64,000 bases of DNA from Acidisarcina polymorpha (GTDB lineage Bacteria; Acidobacteriota; Terriglobia; Terriglobales; Acidobacteriaceae), in assembly GCF_003330725.1 (NCBI RefSeq), contig NZ_CP030840.1, forward strand, positions 3,534,001 to 3,598,000, read 5' to 3'. Under the pieces are notes generated by a model. The model did not search any database and was not told the DNA's origin. It was given only the letters and a program-made list of their open reading frames with translations. The position numbers and the translations under genes were made by a program. Shown in pieces: positions 46,628 through 61,286 of the stretch (within the stretch, counting starts at the first letter, position 1; every line of letters starts with the position of its first letter).

Positions 46628-48136
46628 TCAGGCCGCCGGGTTCGGGGTGGGGGGTGTCTCCTCCGTCGAGTTGGGGCGGTTTGATCGAATGGGAATTCCG
46701 CTAATAAGGCCCTGATATTCTGTGAGGCGTTTGCCGAGAATCACCACGCCCCTGGACGTGATCTCGTACTCGCGAATATCCTTGGCGTGATTTCCACCCC
46801 GCATCTTGATTACCACCATGATCTTGCGCAGTTGACCATCGATGGATACGTACCGCAGTCGAATGATGTCATCAGTGAGGAAAGAAATTGAATAGGTGCT
46901 GAAGGGGAATTCCGTGAAAGACTCATCCACTTCAACTGTGCTTAGAATCGTTACCCCGATCCCAGTCAAAGCGAAGATCATACGGTAAAGCGATTCGCGA
47001 AAGTCGGCGCGGAAGCCGGGCGACAGAGCCATTTCAAAGCCGGCAAGGGAATCGATTACCAGACGCTTGGCGCCGATCTTCCGCACCGCATCGAGAATCG
47101 AGTGCATGGTTTCATCTACAGAGAGATCCAGGGGGCGCAAATAGAGGATTGTCAGTTTCCCGTCTTTCTGCGGCGTCTCCAGATCCAATCCCAGACTGGC
47201 GGCCCGCTCCACATATGCTTGGGGGCGCTCTTCGAAGACCGCCACAATTCCCGGTTCTCCCTGCCGTATGCCCTCCGAAATGAATTGGGTTGCGAGGACA
47301 GATTTCCCGGTACCCGAAGAACCTGCTACGAGGACGCTGTCGCCTTCGCGCACGCCACCATCCAGCATCGCGTCCAGTTCCGGAACCCCGAAGGAGAGGC
47401 GCCGATCGCCGGGCGGATTCCTCTTGCGCGCGGTCAACCCAAAGGTGCGTGAGAAGGCCTGCACCCCGGCATCGGTTATCCGAAAGGTGTGCAGTCCTGG
47501 CACGGAATCCTGACCGCGCAGTTTGATGATCTGCAACTTCCGCACAATTGAATTGCGCTCCGGCGTTTGGCGCAGCCAGAACAGACCATCGGCCACGGTG
47601 AAGATGGGATTGTCGCGTAGCTCCTCCTCCGCGTATTCACCAATTAGGAAGGTTGTAGCTTGCCAGCTAGCCAGATAAAGGGCCAGCCGTTGGATGAAGG
47701 ATTGCAGGTCCATGTCGCTTTCCGGCTTCCGCACCATGGTCCGGAACTAGTCTACAACCACGACGGCGGGGTTAGACTTTTCAACTTCCTTGGTAATCTC
47801 CTCCAGGACCGCGCCCAGGTCCTTCTCCAGGACAACCTGACTCAGGTTGATAAAGCGAATGGAGCCGGGCAGCATGGCCGGATCGAAGAACGTGTACTGC
47901 TGCTGGTATCGCAGCATTTTTATGGCTGATTCGCCTAGTACCGTGAAATAGAGGGCAGGACGTTCAGGGGTGGCGTTGGCAAAGACGAACTGGTGTGCCA
48001 GCGTCGTCTTCCCGCTTCCGGGTGCACCCGCGATGATGTTGAATGAAAATTCCGGGAGACCACCACCCACAATCTGGTCGAGGCCCGGAACTCCGGTGGG
48101 TAGTTGGTTGATCTTCACTTTGTCTTGGGTATTCAC
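46628..48136 (-). pseudogene. KaiC-like two-domain RecA-fold ATPase gene split by an amber codon
   Basis: A GTG at 48136 after GGGAGAAAAGC opens the first domain (TGVPGLDQIVGGGLPEFSFN, Walker A GAPGSGKTTLA, Walker B VVVVD). A TAG at 47747-47749 then stops it. Without the stop the same frame continues FRTMVRKPESDMDLQSFIQR to 46628, with the second Walker A (GSSGTGKSVLA), a second Walker B (RLVIDSLAGFEMAL) and a Pro-rich tail. Full length would be about 502 residues, close to KaiC. A 369-residue second-domain protein could start at ATG 47737. Family members are clock or signalling ATPases; no KaiA/KaiB is present. It overlaps the upstream gene by GTGA. Confidence 0.85.
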
Positions 48137-48588
48137 GCTTTTCTCCCGTTCTCGGAATTGCAATCGTCAAGGGCTGTGTCGGGCCAGGTAACCCGGAGAA
48201 GGCTTAACGTTAGAGCTTCGCCCAGGAAGATTAGCAGCAAACCGAGCAGGCGGGAGATGAGAATGATTCCTCCCCCGCCAGCCGCACACTCGGCAGCCCG
48301 ATCCCTGTCGGTGTCTATTTGATGTTCAATCTCGCTTAGGCCCTCTAATGCTCCATCGGCGGAGATCCGAGCTGCAGCAAGACTGGGAGCTTCCATCCTG
48401 GCCAACGCCAAGGCACGAGAAGCCAGCGACTGAAAACCCGCAATTCCAGCGAACTCACCGAGGCCCTGGCGCAGCTTTTCATAGACGCGAAGGGTCGGAG
48501 ACGCGCTTGGCTCGGAGGTCTCGCCCGCACCGGCTTCATACATGAGAAGTCGATGGGCTAAGTCTCGCATTTCTGGGGTAGCCGTCAT
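48133..48588 (-). CDS. KaiC-neighbour protein of unknown family (paralogue A)
   Basis: From ATG 48588 the product has 151 residues. It begins MTATPEMRDLAHRLLMYEAG, has VYEKLRQGLGEFAGIAGFQS and LASRALALARMEAPSL, then a Gly-rich hinge and a hydrophobic helix (GIILISRLLGLLLIFLGEAL). All these blocks recur in order in the gene at 48739. Its stop overlaps the GTG of the KaiC-like gene (GTGA), implying coupled translation and a common job. Short cytoplasmic helical domain plus membrane anchor is the inferred layout. Confidence 0.75.
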   Translation of the reverse strand: MTATPEMRDLAHRLLMYEAGAGETSEPSASPTLRVYEKLRQGLGEFAGIAGFQSLASRALALARMEAPSLAAARISADGALEGLSEIEHQIDTDRDRAAECAAGGGGIILISRLLGLLLIFLGEALTLSLLRVTWPDTALDDCNSENGRKA

Positions 48589-48738
48589 GTTTAACCAAGC
48601 ATCGTTCAAATGAGCAGATTGCAATTGCCGTTACACGCTTTGTTAGAGGATCAGGCGGCAATTCTGTCCTTTGGCGAGCGCCCTAGCGGGTGTGATCTTC
48701 GACATCCAGAGTCGCGTTGGGGTAGCGCCGGCAGAATC

Positions 48739-49413
48739 TCAATTCATGTAGCGATCGGTTTGTAGGTCAGGCAACTCGTCCTGGGGACCGCCAGCTTTGC
48801 TTCGGATAAGAGTGAAAACGTCGAGAACCGCGGCAATACTGCGAATGTTCCCCGCAACACTCACCAGCCCATCTTCCATGCCTGCATGCTTATCCGCCAG
48901 GGTTTCAATACGTGCGCTCACCTTCCGCAGCCGGTCAATCTCCACCAGAAGGTCGTTGAATGCCGCAGCTATTGCTGGTCCGTCGGACTCAAAGTTTGTC
49001 GTGGCCGACTCTGTCCCCAGGTCGACCTGAAGGCGTAAATCCTCGATCAAACCTAGCGTTGTTGCCTCGCCAAGGAAGGTCAGAAAGAGCCCGAGCAGCT
49101 GCGCAATCAGAATCATTCCGGCTTCGCCATCATCCGCCTCCCCGTGGCCTTCAATCTCGCCGAGACCGCTCAATCCTCCATTCGCCGTTACCTGCACGGT
49201 GTTGAGGTCAGGGGACTCCGATCTTGCCAGAGCCAAGGCACGAGAAGCGAGCGCCTGAAAACCATCAACGCCGACGGTTGCGCTGAGTTGCCGGCGCAGC
49301 CTCTCATAAACGCGCACGGTGGCGGGTTCAAATTGCAAAATGGATGCACCTGTATCGGCCTCGCAAGCAACGAGGCTGCGGGCCAAATCACGCGTTTTTT
49401 GTGGAGAAGGCAT
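48739..49413 (-). CDS. KaiC-neighbour protein of unknown family (paralogue B, longer)
   Basis: From ATG 49413, 224 residues. The first 130 match paralogue A: KTRDLARSLVACEADTGASI, VRVYERLRRQLSATVGVDGF, LASRALALARSESPDL, GGLSGLGEIEGHGEAD and MILIAQLLGLFLTFLGEATT. A longer C-terminal part adds a helical region (AFNDLLVEIDRLRKVSARIE) that could be a coiled coil. It is first in the leftward group B, A, KaiC-like. No known domain recognised. Confidence 0.75.
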   Translation of the reverse strand: MPSPQKTRDLARSLVACEADTGASILQFEPATVRVYERLRRQLSATVGVDGFQALASRALALARSESPDLNTVQVTANGGLSGLGEIEGHGEADDGEAGMILIAQLLGLFLTFLGEATTLGLIEDLRLQVDLGTESATTNFESDGPAIAAAFNDLLVEIDRLRKVSARIETLADKHAGMEDGLVSVAGNIRSIAAVLDVFTLIRSKAGGPQDELPDLQTDRYMN

Positions 49414-49721
49414 CGTTTCGGTTCTTTGTTTACAAGCTACGTTCGCCTTGAGCATAAAGCATTATCCCGACACGGTTCATCGTACTCAATTCAACGTGTT
49501 GCAATCCAAAGATAATTGAAACATTTCTGAAGGATGAGCAAACTTGAACGGGTTGTCCCGCTGCCGGGGAATCCGTAGGGTGCAAGGACTGCTCGTTTGA
49601 AGGGAGAAGGTCCAGCTTGACCCCGACTGCAACGGATGATTACCCACCTCCTCCTTTACTAAAATGCTTTTTATACCCCCCGCGCAACCCTCACCAATCA
49701 CCCCTCACGGGCCGCAACAGT
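49414..49721. other. Intergenic region upstream of the KaiC-type group
   Basis: The 308-bp gap must hold the promoter of the leftward KaiC-type group. No gene is recognised. Confidence 0.4.
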
Positions 49722-55035: not shown

Positions 55036-55671
55036 CGCGAAGTAAGACGGGTGATTGGCTATTTCGTCTGCTAAATGATTAGGTGTTCATCTGCGGAGTG
55101 CTCTTCAGAGTCTTTGGTAAACAGCGGATAGAATTCGGGCAAAGCCCGTTCACCTAGGTCGGAGTTACGTACCTACCAAACGTGAAGCTAGCCATAACTC
55201 AGACATTGTCTTATTCCCTTTGTCTGTGAAGACCCTTGTAGCTGATTGTCGCGGACACGCTGGCTATTTAGGTGGATTTAGCTCACTTACCCGAGACTAA
55301 GAACACCATTCAGTTGGCTTTCACGGGACGTATTTCGTTGACGATAGGCCGTCCAATCTCTTCAGGGAACGCGTTCAACACGAGCAAACATCTAGCTAAG
55401 CCTCATGTTTGCTGGTAAAATTCAAAGAGATATAAGTTTGTATGCGTATGAGTGACCAGCCGGATTTCCCACGGAGAAGAAAGTACCTAAACGGTCACTT
55501 GCTACACATGTTCCTCGGCTGGATGGAGGAGCGAGCCGCCGAACGGGTGAGGAGTCGCCGTGCCAATTGCCCCTGGTGACAATATCTGGAATGACCGCGC
55601 TCACGGAGGTGGTTGTTTCGGCCAAGTCCATGCGCGCTTTCCAGCCGCAAAGCCCGTTTGAGTCGCAGATC
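55036..55671. other. Intergenic region, no gene recognised
   Basis: A 636-bp stretch without recognisable genes on either strand. A short plus-strand piece near 55560-55670 leads into the IS110 relic and may be its decayed upstream part. Confidence 0.4.
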
Positions 55672-56080
55672 ACGCTTTGAAGATGCTAGGCAACTCATGG
55701 GTTACAGCGGCATTGTGCCCAGTGAGGACTCCAGCGGCGAGCGAACGCAACGCGGGGGTATCACCAAGACGGGCAACGCACACTTGAGACGCATCGCAGT
55801 CGAAGCGGCCTGGAGCGACAGGCTCCGACCATGCGTCGGACCGGCGTTGCTCCAGCGGCAATAGGGAGTTGCGGAAGAGATCAAGGAGACAGCCTGGAAG
55901 GCACAACACCGGCGGCACAAGCGCTACTGCAAGCTGGCAGCGACCCGAAAGGATCAGAGAAGTCTCTATGCGACAGGCTTAGCCGGACTCGCGACACTAG
56001 TCAGAGGCAGCTCCCGACGGATCAAGATTATGCGGTTTCGACGCGCAAATATCAGACTGATCAATCGTCGCTCAAACACG
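55672..56080 (+). pseudogene. IS110-family transposase, C-terminal remnant
   Basis: The frame reads FEDARQLMGYSGIVPSEDSS, GERTQRGGITKTGNAHLRRI, AVEAAW, then a TAG at 55861-55863, and goes on GVAEEIKETAWKAQHRRHKR, YCKLAA. (R/F)QLM.Y.GLVPSE.SSG...R.GGITK.GN...R..L.EAAW is the C-terminal Ser domain of IS110 transposases. The DEDD N-terminus is absent and the stop interrupts the tail. Confidence 0.85.
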
Positions 56081-56220: not shown

Positions 56221-56264
56221 AAGATCAAATGTCCGAGAAACCGGTGGTTCGGACATTTGATCTT
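56221..56264. terminator. 16-bp perfect inverted repeat downstream of the lectin gene
   Basis: AAGATCAAATGTCCGA (56221-56236) is the exact reverse complement of TCGGACATTTGATCTT (56249-56264), with a 12-base loop. It lies 69 bp beyond the stop of the leftward lectin gene, so it may end that transcript or rightward read-through. The T-tract is short on both sides; a mobile-element end is an alternative. Confidence 0.5.
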
Positions 56265-56332: not shown

Positions 56333-57925
56333 TTAGGCATAGACAGCGTAGATGCGATCCTGGAAGAGCTCATTCGTGCCGGTAAAGAGGAACTTGAAAT
56401 CCGTCCACCCGCCGAAGCCAACGGTAGTCGGAGCCGAGACGTTGCCGGGGAGTCCATTATCGGTGTAGGAAAGCAGTTGACCCTGGTCGTTTACTGCGTA
56501 GATACGGTCTTGTCCAAGTTGGTTCTTGCCGGCGAAGAGGAACTTGAACTGCAACCATCCGTCAAAGCCAACGATGACTGGTGCCGAGACATTCCCGGTA
56601 TTTCCGTTATCGGTGTAGCAAAGCAGTTGACCTTGGTCGTTCACCGCGTAAATGCGGCCTTGCCCGGTTGCGTTTCTGCCGCCGAAGAGAAACTTGAACT
56701 GCAACCATCCGCCAAAGCCAACAATCGCTGGAGATGACACATTGCCGATAGATGCGGCGTCCCCATAGGAGAGCAGTTGGCCCTGATCATTTACCGCGTA
56801 GATGCGGCCTTGCCCGTCTGTGTTCCAGCCTCCAAAGAGGAACTTGAACTGCAACCATCCGCCAAAGCCAACGACGACTGGAGACGACACATTGCCGATG
56901 GTTCCGGCATCTGCGTAGGCGAGCAGTTGACCCTGCCCGTCCACCGCGTAGATGCGGCTCTGGCCGTAGATGTTTTGACCGCCGAAGAGGAGCATGAAGG
57001 CCGACCATCCCGCAAAGCCGACGCCTACCGGGTTGGCTACAGCGCCGGGAAGATTGGGATCTCCATAGGAGAGCAACTGGGGGACGTAGACGCTCTGACT
57101 CACGGTTGCGCCTGAGGCGGGCGTGATCTCCCGATAGATGGTGTTGGAGGATTCCCCGGTAGGAGTCTGACGGACGCTGGAGCACTGTGTGCTCGCGGCC
57201 TGAACTGCAAGTGCACCCTGGGATATGGAGTAGGTCAGAGTTCCAGCGCCGGACGAAAAGGTGCACGGCAAGCCGGGCGCAGAGACGAGGTCGGCCTGAA
57301 AGCCGTAGATCGGAAAGAGGGCGTAATCTGCCGGTTCAGACTGGCCGGCGTAGTTCTTCCACGGCTGGGTGCTGGCTGATTGAACCTTACCGCCTGGATC
57401 GGTGATGCTGAAGGTCGCCCCGGTCACGTTTCCGTTGCTGTCGGTCGGGAGTTTGATTGTGATCACTGAGCCCGCAACCACCGTATTCGAAGCCGTGGAG
57501 CCAACAACAGTGCCGGTTATGGAGGAGTTGGGAAAGACTGGGAGCCATGGACTCGTATTCGCAGGGTTCGGCGTGTACCTTGGGGGCCACCGTATTTCGG
57601 GAGGGTTGTTATTCGGCCCCGCTGTTCGATAGGACTGTGCGCTGGCCCAGTATTGAATTTCAAAGGTGACCTGGTTGTTGGCCACGATGATGAGATATTG
57701 AAACCAGTTAAGCTGGCCAACGATTTTTCCCGGGAAGGTTGTGTCCTGGGTTGAATTCGGGGTTATCGCTGTAGGCTGCGGATAGGAATTCAACTGCAGT
57801 GAGAATCCCTTGTTGTTCACCTCGATCAAATCCTCGGTGACCTGCAGGGTTACCGTCAGATTCTCGAGATTTTTGCAACCGTTCACCAGAATACTGTTGT
57901 TGCTGCCGCCGCCCGCGAAGCCCAT
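56333..57925 (-). CDS. Tachylectin-2-like five-bladed beta-propeller protein
   Basis: From ATG 57925 after AGAGGGAAAC, 530 residues without signal peptide. The N-terminal half is beta-rich (NGCKNLENLTVTLQV, VVAGSVITIKLPTDSNG). From about residue 290 five repeats of about 50 residues follow: GFGGWLQFKFLFGG, GQGRIYAVNDQGQLLSY and GNVSSP. There are five GF-GW motifs and five QLL-Y motifs, with a half-repeat at each end as in a Velcro-closed propeller. Tachylectin-2 has five blades with similar Trp-rich repeats and binds GlcNAc/GalNAc. Lectin activity is inferred. How the protein would leave the cell is unclear. Confidence 0.8.
   Translation of the reverse strand: MGFAGGGSNNSILVNGCKNLENLTVTLQVTEDLIEVNNKGFSLQLNSYPQPTAITPNSTQDTTFPGKIVGQLNWFQYLIIVANNQVTFEIQYWASAQSYRTAGPNNNPPEIRWPPRYTPNPANTSPWLPVFPNSSITGTVVGSTASNTVVAGSVITIKLPTDSNGNVTGATFSITDPGGKVQSASTQPWKNYAGQSEPADYALFPIYGFQADLVSAPGLPCTFSSGAGTLTYSISQGALAVQAASTQCSSVRQTPTGESSNTIYREITPASGATVSQSVYVPQLLSYGDPNLPGAVANPVGVGFAGWSAFMLLFGGQNIYGQSRIYAVDGQGQLLAYADAGTIGNVSSPVVVGFGGWLQFKFLFGGWNTDGQGRIYAVNDQGQLLSYGDAASIGNVSSPAIVGFGGWLQFKFLFGGRNATGQGRIYAVNDQGQLLCYTDNGNTGNVSAPVIVGFDGWLQFKFLFAGKNQLGQDRIYAVNDQGQLLSYTDNGLPGNVSAPTTVGFGGWTDFKFLFTGTNELFQDRIYAVYA
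56340..57060. repeat. Tandem 150-bp coding repeats of the propeller
   Basis: Nearly identical blocks about 150 bp long encode the blades. The plus-strand phrase AACTTGAACTGCAACCATCC recurs in several copies. Near identity at DNA level suggests recent expansion or gene conversion of blades. Confidence 0.8.
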
Positions 57926-58314
57926 ATTTGTTTCCCTCTGAGGAGGTAGTGACACTTGGGTGCGAAGCGTTTCGCCACGACTTTATGAAAGTTCACGGGC
58001 TTGGCTACCCGAACCAAGTGTTAATTTATGGTGGTACTCCTTCTTCTTGAAATCCTCTATTACATCGGTGAAGACCTAATGCAAAACTGATTTGTATTCA
58101 CCTGGAAGGGTAGTCGGCCCTTAGCTTGACTGACGAACAGTCAATATGTAATCGCCAACACGCGTGTCGAGGGAGGCCGGCGTGGAAACGTGCATAGGCC
58201 TGTTCTCGTGACTTGAGTAAATCCTGGGCGGATTGCTTCCGACAAGCCGACTCGAGTGCGGTGGCGATAACGCAGCAATTGAGGAACCGAAACACGGATG
58301 AATACTTCATCCCA

Positions 58315-59253: not shown

Positions 59254-60852
59254 TCATTTCCCCAGAATGCCGAAGACCGCAACACCGGTCGGAGTGCCTA
59301 CGTAGACTCTGCCGTTGGCGATGGTGGGCGTGGCGAAATGGGCTGCTGCCCCAAACAGATCACGGCTGCCAGCCTGCCCGCTGTCGTAATACTTATCGGA
59401 AAGGTCTTCAGCATTAAACGCGTATAGGATAAACGGAGTGGTATGCGAGATTGCCCATACAATTCCATTCGCATTACCGTTTGACGATATCGAGGGGGTC
59501 GATCCTGGGTATACGAAAGTGGCAGCGCTACGGCTTGCAGGCGTATCCACCAGCGTGGCATTCGAGATGCTAAACGCCTTCAGCGTGTCGTTGACTCCAC
59601 CGTAATATATCTTGTTATCAAAGTAGGCTGGTGCAGAAAACGCCCCATTTGGTAGAGCATTGCTCAGAACCTGATAGATGAACCCCCCGTTCGGATGATA
59701 CTTACCAAGATTTATCCGGTTGAACAGGTAGATGTTGTGGTCTTTACCAGCACCAACGCCGAGAAAGTGTAGGTTTCCAGCGTTATCGGTCAGAGAAGGC
59801 AACAGAAGAACGCCACCGGAGCCAAGATCAATATCAGCATCTGATTGTTGAACTGTGTTGTCGGTGGCGTAATAATCAAACACCCTGATGCCAGAACCGT
59901 CCTGGCTTAGAGCGATAAGAGAATTGCCAAAGTCCTGATGGATAGGCATCCCCCCGGCGTCGAGGGTGGTGTCGAAGGTGCCATTGGCATCAAGAAAATA
60001 CATATACAGTCCATTTGCCGCAAGACCCGCACCGCTCATCCAAACCGATCCCTCGTTGCCGTTTGGTGTGACGTCAAGGACGGCTGATTGTTGCAGAGTG
60101 GTTGCGTTGTAGCCGAGGATCCACCCGGTATAGGGTCGCCTGTCGCAATGTGACGTCCATGAGGTGTAAATAGCACCGTTCCATTCGAGCAATGCTGCTC
60201 GCTCGGCATACTGGCCCGGATCGAAAGTCACTTGTCCCGAGCTGCTATTATCCCCTGTCCCTATATACCGAGCTGTTATTTCGGTTGGCCCATTGAACAG
60301 TTGAGTTCCGGTGACCAGATCGAGAGCACTGATGCGCTGATGGTAATGGCCGGTCCCATCCTTTGACATACTGACGACGTAGATTGCACCATGCGGGCCC
60401 TTAGATGGATCTATCACCGGAGTCGAAGTAACGCCGATCTCAGGCGTAATCTGAGAGCAGCCGTGATCATCGCTGGGCGATTCACCCACCTTAAGAAGAG
60501 AGCTCTTCCACAAGGTCGCGCCGCTTTGCGCGTCAAATGCGTAGACAGTATCATGTTCAGTGGCCACATAAAGCACGTTGTGGATTTGATTTCCAATCGT
60601 TAGCCCCGGAACATGAAGAGGCTCGGCGTCGACTATACCGTCTGTAGCAAAAAAGCCCAGCTTGCCAAACGTGGAGTAATGCACGGTGGAGAAGCTTAGC
60701 AACTGCTCATTGTTATTGAGTCCATTGCGATCATTGTTGACATGCCAGGTATAGATTTGGGCATCTTCGGCATTGAGATACGAGCTATGGCTGGACGTAA
60801 AGGTGAGAAGTGATACTGTGATTGCGAGATAAAAAGGGCCTTTGATCGTCAT
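59254..60852 (-). CDS. Secreted PQQ-type beta-propeller protein
   Basis: From ATG 60852, seven bases after AGGGAGAC, 532 residues. A signal peptide (IKGPFYLAITVSLLTFTSSH) precedes IYTWHVNNDRNGLNNNEQLL and a propeller with repeated blades such as VLYVATEHDTVYAFDAQSGA, LWKSS, IYVVSMSKDG, ISALDLVTGTQLF, KIYYGGVNDTLKAFSISNAT and GRVYVGTPTGVAVFGIL. The blades resemble the PQQ/pyrrolo-quinoline repeat type without the full cofactor site. It is probably a structural or binding protein outside the cell. Enzyme activity is not indicated. Confidence 0.85.
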   Translation of the reverse strand: MTIKGPFYLAITVSLLTFTSSHSSYLNAEDAQIYTWHVNNDRNGLNNNEQLLSFSTVHYSTFGKLGFFATDGIVDAEPLHVPGLTIGNQIHNVLYVATEHDTVYAFDAQSGATLWKSSLLKVGESPSDDHGCSQITPEIGVTSTPVIDPSKGPHGAIYVVSMSKDGTGHYHQRISALDLVTGTQLFNGPTEITARYIGTGDNSSSGQVTFDPGQYAERAALLEWNGAIYTSWTSHCDRRPYTGWILGYNATTLQQSAVLDVTPNGNEGSVWMSGAGLAANGLYMYFLDANGTFDTTLDAGGMPIHQDFGNSLIALSQDGSGIRVFDYYATDNTVQQSDADIDLGSGGVLLLPSLTDNAGNLHFLGVGAGKDHNIYLFNRINLGKYHPNGGFIYQVLSNALPNGAFSAPAYFDNKIYYGGVNDTLKAFSISNATLVDTPASRSAATFVYPGSTPSISSNGNANGIVWAISHTTPFILYAFNAEDLSDKYYDSGQAGSRDLFGAAAHFATPTIANGRVYVGTPTGVAVFGILGK

Positions 60853-61286
60853 GATGTCTCCCTGTGATGCCCATCCTGAAGTGGCTGGTGAATTGCGCTT
60901 CATTCGCTCAATCGCCAAGCGACTTAGGTGGTATCGCCACAGCGGATCCATCTGTTGTGCATCAAGCTTCGTCTTGTGACGCCGGGAATACCGGATTGGT
61001 TGGATAGTGCCGGTTTCCTGGTTATTTTAACCTCATCATCAAAAGGTTTAGCGTGCCGATAACGTGTACGTCGATGAATGCCTGCGGCCCATTATCGGAC
61101 GACGTCCGGCTGCTCCGATCGTGCAGCAGGTGGCCCCTGGCGGGCAGCACTTGCCCAGGCAGCAGGTCTGCGTTTCCGGGCAGCATATCGTTTCGAAGGC
61201 TCCCCTGACATACGATTTGAGACGGTGGCGGTTGCGCTCGCAATCTCCCGGGTCAGCCCTTTAGGGTTCTAGGGCTAATACTTCCA
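60853..61286. other. Intergenic region, no gene recognised
   Basis: 434 bp without convincing coding. The left part holds the promoter of the propeller gene. Confidence 0.4.

Follow-up and report, generated by a model that had tools for sequence, protein, structure and literature searches.

A tachylectin-2-like propeller joined to a rare constant domain in Acidisarcina polymorpha

The window, a 64,000-nt stretch of the Acidisarcina polymorpha genome, carries a gene for a protein that, on balance, we take to be a two-module glycan binder, in which a five-bladed propeller is joined to a constant domain, here called domain X, and whose glycan is likelier to lie on another organism. The C-terminal half of this protein is supported by sequence comparisons as a tachylectin-2-like five-repeat propeller, with weaker support from a structural model. 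The N-terminal ~280 aa, domain X, form the unexpected part of the protein; this domain is undescribed and rare, and it appears to be a constant module with exchangeable propellers. The features of the locus, with the blades placed by blade comparison, are the following.

56333..57925, minus strand: gene encoding 530 aa plus stop, with an ATG start
57934..57939, minus strand: AGAGGG, Shine-Dalgarno-like, 8 nt before the ATG, judged by eye
57086..57925, minus strand: domain X, residues 1 to ~280, of no known family, with homologous modules in proteins P0002, P0003, P0004 and P0005
56927..57076, minus strand: blade 1, residues 284-333, the most divergent blade
56777..56926, minus strand: blade 2, residues 334-383
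56627..56776, minus strand: blade 3, residues 384-433
56477..56626, minus strand: blade 4, residues 434-483
56336..56476, minus strand: blade 5, residues 484-530, with the last strand RIYAV
56223..56262, no strand assigned: perfect 14-bp inverted repeat with a 12-nt loop just past the gene's stop, a possible terminator

The gene and its five-repeat propeller

The open reading frame was borne out as a real gene. Its start, MGFAG, is common to the window protein and its orthologue L002, and MGL is common to P0005, a stand-alone copy of X. The window protein is the sole match in its own genome at E 0.001. Even when up to 3 mismatches are allowed, the inverted repeat past the stop codon is confined to a single site in the genome; it was not listed by the terminator scan, and its loop is longer than that scan permits. 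A. polymorpha SBC82T comes from lichen-covered tundra soil and was sequenced with 454 and MinION reads, giving a chromosome of 7,112,011 bp and plasmids of 62,450, 108,812, 196,405 and 121,048 bp (PMC6252331); the window's genome comprises 7,600,726 bases in 5 contigs.

Residues 284-530, the C-terminal half of the protein, consist of five repeats of 50 aa, or 150 bp, each. Self-identity of the protein was 0.71 at an offset of 50 compared to 0.125 at the next best offset, and Tandem Repeats Finder scored the repeats at 573-708, far beyond chance. The preliminary description of this locus had proposed a tachylectin-2-like propeller, and this was supported by a match to the Pfam family Tachylectin (PF14517; E 1.8e-14, 54.5 bits against a cut-off of 29.8) and by a phmmer match to tachylectin-2 itself (PDB 1tl2, E 2.6e-10). 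PF14517 was also over its cut-off in the related proteins L003, L007, L009 and L012. It was not listed for L002 at E 0.1, where it was presumably lost through HMMER's filters, because L002 is 77% identical to the window protein overall. Tachylectin-2 (1TL2), a protein of Tachypleus and of horseshoe crab immunity, and 5C2M likewise contain five repeats of ~47-50 aa with an IGxGGWxxFKFLF-like core. In contrast to tachylectin-2, the window protein is bacterial, is joined to X, has the Trp of the DNW motif replaced and has a longer loop before RIYAV. The motif GW-QFKFLFGG, first ascribed to the repeats in general, holds in part: blades 2 and 3 contain GWLQFKFLFGG letter for letter, whereas blade 4 reads GWLQFKFLFAG and blades 1 and 5 deviate. 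Pfam matches to Proteasome (E 4.6e-5, just over cut-off) and to RCC1_2, RE_Alw26IDE, Laminin_G_3 and SH3_15, some of them over cut-off, all fall within the blades and were taken as spurious.

A model of the propeller (residues 270-530, built from three sequences) reached moderate confidence (pLDDT 64, pTM 0.67), with four strands in four of the five repeats and three strands in the remaining one. When 975 chains were realigned to it, the tachylectin-type chain 5c2m came out on top (Z 14.2, rmsd 4.0, 209 residues aligned), followed within the tool's tie range by 9ya3_H, a Toxoplasma microtubule-region chain (Z 13.6), and in third place by an UmbA4 complex chain (Z 12.6). Foldseek gave its top ranks to CV39L and PLL, which are seven-bladed lectins, and its best 50 rows contained neither 1tl2 nor 5c2m. 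The number of blades is therefore read from the sequence repeats more than from the model. A repeat extends from the LLSY strand to the RIYAV strand, so that pairing of the first LLSY with the last RIYAV would be needed, a frame that would suit closure of the Velcro type.

Of the 299 genomes searched in the class, 13 matched the Tachylectin family at E 0.001 and 7 exceeded its cut-off. In L003 (from KBS 83) and L012, the propeller type seen in the window follows another, shared front domain (49% identical), for which there was no curated Pfam match and, for L012's copy, no PDB match at E 1. By eye, this front domain (L003:7062-8006; L012:127-1146) resembles an M6-type metalloprotease without the first His of HExxH, and it is possibly an inactive enzyme serving as a binding domain. 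A third type of front domain, also judged by eye, precedes the propeller in L007 (L007:931-2733, minus strand) and L009 (L009:973-2583, minus strand), both of which have a coiled-coil-like tail with V-SNARE Pfam matches near the cut-off. Directly before the orthologue L002 lies a 1131-aa protein (L002:4452-7847, plus strand) with no Pfam family at E 0.1. Its N-terminal part is 41% identical (E 8e-44) to the front of L026, a protein of genome G227 that carries a longer tachylectin-like array, and a search of the window's genome, run without a positive control, gave no match to it.

Divergence among the blades

The repeats had been described as near-identical in DNA and as the product of recent amplification, and blade comparison, together with synonymous divergence, supports neither statement. 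Among blade pairs of the window protein, identity ranges over 57-82% in DNA, with a median of 66%, and over 55-82% in protein, with a median of 62%; an ungapped 257-nt register gives 74-79% DNA identity. All six acidobacterial proteins of this type that were compared have five blades, and the protein blade medians of the relatives are 70% (L002), 86% (L003), 80% (L007), 72% (L009) and 83% (L012), the window protein having the least homogeneous blades of the six. Left out of these statistics were L008/L020/L026 (G227) and L010/L022 (G630), which represent another tachylectin-like subfamily, and likewise the weak matches L013-L019. Bacterial tachylectin-like propellers and the amplification of their blades have been published, and they belong to the same family as the window propeller, likewise with extra domains and high blade similarity (Pereira and Lupas 2021, PMC8023676; 2022, PMC9218822). 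In the available parts of those papers, highly repetitive members (median above 60%) are given for Actinobacteria and Cnidaria only. The six acidobacterial proteins, with medians of 62-86%, all pass 60%, the window protein barely. They extend blade-repetitive tachylectin-like propellers to Acidobacteriota, from which the available parts of the published survey do not report them; the accessible literature on tachylectin in Acidobacteria likewise showed nothing apparent on this propeller type.

Comparison with the orthologue bears on the age of the array. Blades 2 and 5 of the window protein are closest to blades 2 and 5 of L002 (85% in each case), and the identity of blade 1 singles out no partner (64% to three L002 blades). 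In trees of the window and L002 blades, blades 1, 2 and 5 pair by position with support of 0.83, 0.83 and 0.95 in protein and of 0.92, 0.77 and 1.00 in DNA; blades 3 and 4 are unresolved in these trees. The median synonymous difference is 0.54 among the window blades compared to 0.45 between the N-terminal domains of the window protein and L002, and it is 0.22-0.55 between same-position blades of the two proteins, single values being noisy at 47 codons per blade. Because the blades have diverged at synonymous sites as much as the two genomes have, and blades 2 and 5 are matched by position in L002, the amplification appears to be old, and the five-blade state most likely predates the split of the window and L002 lineages. 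Synonymous difference among blades is lower in L003 (0.35) and L012 (0.40), where amplification or homogenisation may have come later. Similar-looking blades can thus be old. Assembly collapse of the repeats, for which a check had been proposed, is unlikely: every pair of blades shows a DNA difference of 18% or more, the orthologue has the same count and the genome was sequenced with MinION and 454 reads (PMC6252331).

Domain X and its different arrays

That the N-terminal part is separate from the propeller, as originally described, agrees with its having no internal repeat and no convincing match to a known family. Domain X had no convincing match in Pfam, PHROGs or PDB, its best outside matches all being weak (PDB 9jzr_i, E 0.02; EutN_CcmL, 0.08; phrog_3398, 0.026). 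No peptidase family was among the Pfam matches to the N-terminal part, and the fold of X was poorly modelled: a full-length model from two sequences had 10-residue means of 21-43 over X, too poor for use. PADLOC listed no defence system for the whole window protein or for P0002. Matches of L003 to PDC-S26 (best E 1.3e-16) were rejected as repeat similarity, the best stretches being 21-34 residues inside repeats.

Modules homologous to X were recovered by BLASTP in P0005 (9e-49), P0003 (3.5e-11), P0002 (5.5e-10) and the two halves of P0004 (8.8e-6 and 1.6e-4). P0002 is encoded by a plasmid of 842 kb in Polymorphobacter sp. PAMC 29334, a strain from the lichen Megaspora, and its X copy is identical in P. 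megasporae. P0002 has a PLL-type lectin propeller as its N-terminal half (5c9o, E 7.7e-57), and X makes up its C-terminal half (28% against window X over 248 columns, E 3e-9). P0003 (G636) has six 47-aa repeats and then X, and in P0004 (G389; L046:9029-10963, plus strand) X is interrupted by seven 53-aa repeats, both repeat numbers having been counted by eye; in P0004 the whole array was apparently inserted into a loop of X. P0005 (G506) is X alone. The four X-associated repeat arrays have no mutual similarity in BLASTP (lowest E 0.67), and the repeats of P0003 and P0004 matched nothing in PDB at E 1 and exceeded the cut-off of no Pfam family. P0003 matched 28 plasmid records, of which the best 20 all match within its repeats; 14 of these 20 are annotated as hypothetical protein, 3 are unannotated, 2 are glycoside hydrolase family 18 and 1 is PI-PLC. 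We infer that the repeat arrays of P0003 and P0004 may be lectins as well.

A profile of X matched 7 of the 399 genomes of the class that were searched. The matches kept were those in the window's genome, in L002's contig (again as G759, which also has 32,342 bases and was taken as the same contig and thus as not independent), and P0003, P0004 and P0005. G584 (a 45-residue piece) and G765 (with stops) were dropped, as were weak matches with stop codons or in short pieces in the searches generally. In a sample of the phylum (396 genomes), a five-row profile built without P0004 matched the window's genome and G389 only, the match to G389 being split into three (best E 7e-15). On the evidence of these sequences, X occurs with different arrays, in different orders and in at least two phyla, and is rare in the genomes searched.

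Two known systems invite comparison. A PLL-type propeller, as in the PLL/PHL lectins of Photorhabdus, is joined to the X homologue in P0002; however, these lectins have seven blades, and at E 10 their sequences show no resemblance to the window propeller. UmbA of the Streptomyces umbrella particles (PMC11062931) follows an analogous plan, with one conserved domain and diverse lectin propellers, but its conserved domain is trypsin-like and sits in a secreted particle. It is conceivable, if doubtful, that X is the constant docking or effector part of an undescribed lectin system, parallel but unrelated to UmbA, whose propellers are swapped by recombination before, after or inside a loop of X and set a strain-specific glycan target. 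A combination of X with interchangeable propellers was not found described in the literature as far as it was accessible; an unnamed domain being unsearchable by words, we claim no novelty for it. Domain X offers a way to find, in bacteria of soil and lichens, glycan-targeting proteins that lack a signal peptide, and it raises a testable question, the role of the constant domain.

Sugar pocket, export and proposed role

A GW motif contributes to the sugar pocket of tachylectin-2, as does a Trp by which a short helix is anchored (PMC8023676). All 20 blades that the window protein, L002, L003 and L012 contain between them carry the pocket GW. The Trp of the tachylectin-2 DNW motif, by our own reading the helix-anchoring one, aligns with Asn in the window protein, and across the six proteins this position is N, D or A, with W in 0 of 30 blades. 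Where this Trp would stand, the same 20 blades have GNVSxP (N and S in 19 of 20 each; G, V and P in all 20), which suggests that the subfamily carries its own conserved signature; the predicted pockets may be altered or absent. Because the DNW Trp is replaced and the signature is the subfamily's own, GlcNAc specificity is not to be carried over from tachylectin-2, and the GlcNAc/GalNAc specificity originally suggested is not supported in that form. A true GlcNAc/GalNAc lectin of the tachylectin-2 type, binding chitin or other GlcNAc polymers, is therefore unlikely in spite of the membership in the Tachylectin family by Pfam and phmmer, the pocket GW in every blade and the strain's use of amorphous chitin (PMC6252331): besides the loss of Trp in all 30 blades, the variable residue of IGxGGW, a sugar contact as deduced from the available part of PMC2880987, is F in all five window blades.

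A simple hydropathy scan, used here instead of SignalP, gave N-terminal maxima of 0.66-1.42 for seven proteins (window, L002, L003 and P0002-P0005) compared to 1.98 for a window protein with an apparent signal, P0002 being not far below this control at 1.42. Consistent with the preliminary description, the window protein has no strongly hydrophobic N-terminus. The bacterial tachylectin-like proteins of the published accounts are described as secreted (PMC8023676, PMC9218822), whereas those scanned here have no evident signal. The propeller might thus serve inside the cell as a protein-binding scaffold and not as a lectin, which would agree with its altered pocket motif and with the protein-protein interactions that propellers of this supercluster also mediate (PMC9218822). 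However, the characterised relatives of both identifiable propellers are lectins, and GNVSxP is kept in nearly every blade, beyond the apparent need of a scaffold; we regard this alternative as decidedly unlikely.

By eye, no recurring neighbour was present among the ORFs around the gene at the window, L002, L045, L046 and L047, part of the neighbouring ORFs having been scanned with Pfam and the rest judged by eye, and a conserved operon or secretion partner was rejected on this ground. The neighbourhood also bears on the possibility that the protein binds self-glycans or belongs to a matrix, for example that of the cellulose chambers of the species, after export by an unknown route. The saccular chambers of the species are built from cellulose (PMC9693552) and cross-linking suits multivalent lectins, but inspection by eye revealed no cellulose operon among these neighbouring ORFs and no signal peptide was evident in the hydropathy scan, leaving a matrix role as the least likely of the alternatives. 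A phage or viral origin was rejected as well, with no match among 50,697 phage records; in viral contigs the pattern matched in 4 and 177 stretches, of which 0 were confirmed.

We thus favour the two-module glycan binder. The window protein would bind carbohydrate and would probably be cytosolic or non-classically released. Its C-terminal half would form a closed five-bladed propeller with up to five similar pockets between the blades, and could bind a repeated glycan with avidity. The propeller would supply sugar specificity. As X is constant across different arrays, of which its sequence homologues indicate at least four, it would most likely supply the feature common to these proteins, be it partner docking, oligomerisation or activity at the bound surface. 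Given the rarity and patchy distribution of the gene and its lack of recurring neighbours, the glycan would be likelier to lie on a fungal or lichen partner, a grazer or a competing bacterium than on the producer itself, which is the weakest step of the proposal. Fungi are known to defend themselves with cytosolic lectins that lack signal sequences and act once a predator has ingested them (PMC6272156), and the PLL lectins of Photorhabdus have been investigated for their part in symbiosis and pathogenicity (PMC12203525). For the window protein, the likeliest use would be to defend the producer against grazers or competitors, or to attach it to a fungal or lichen partner.

Further observations concern the surrounding DNA. 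Beside the lectin gene, 55613-55864 on the plus strand encodes a C-terminal piece of a transposase of the IS110/IS116 family (Pfam Transposase_20, E 1.9e-13), which hints at mobility in the past. A 565-aa ORF at 59254-60951 (minus strand) has weak PQQ-like propeller matches below the cut-off and an apparent signal peptide when read from an internal ATG. Two adjoining ORFs at 48133-49455 (minus strand), related to each other by eye, neighbour the ORFs at 46628-48163, within which 46631-47737 encodes a KaiC-like ATPase.
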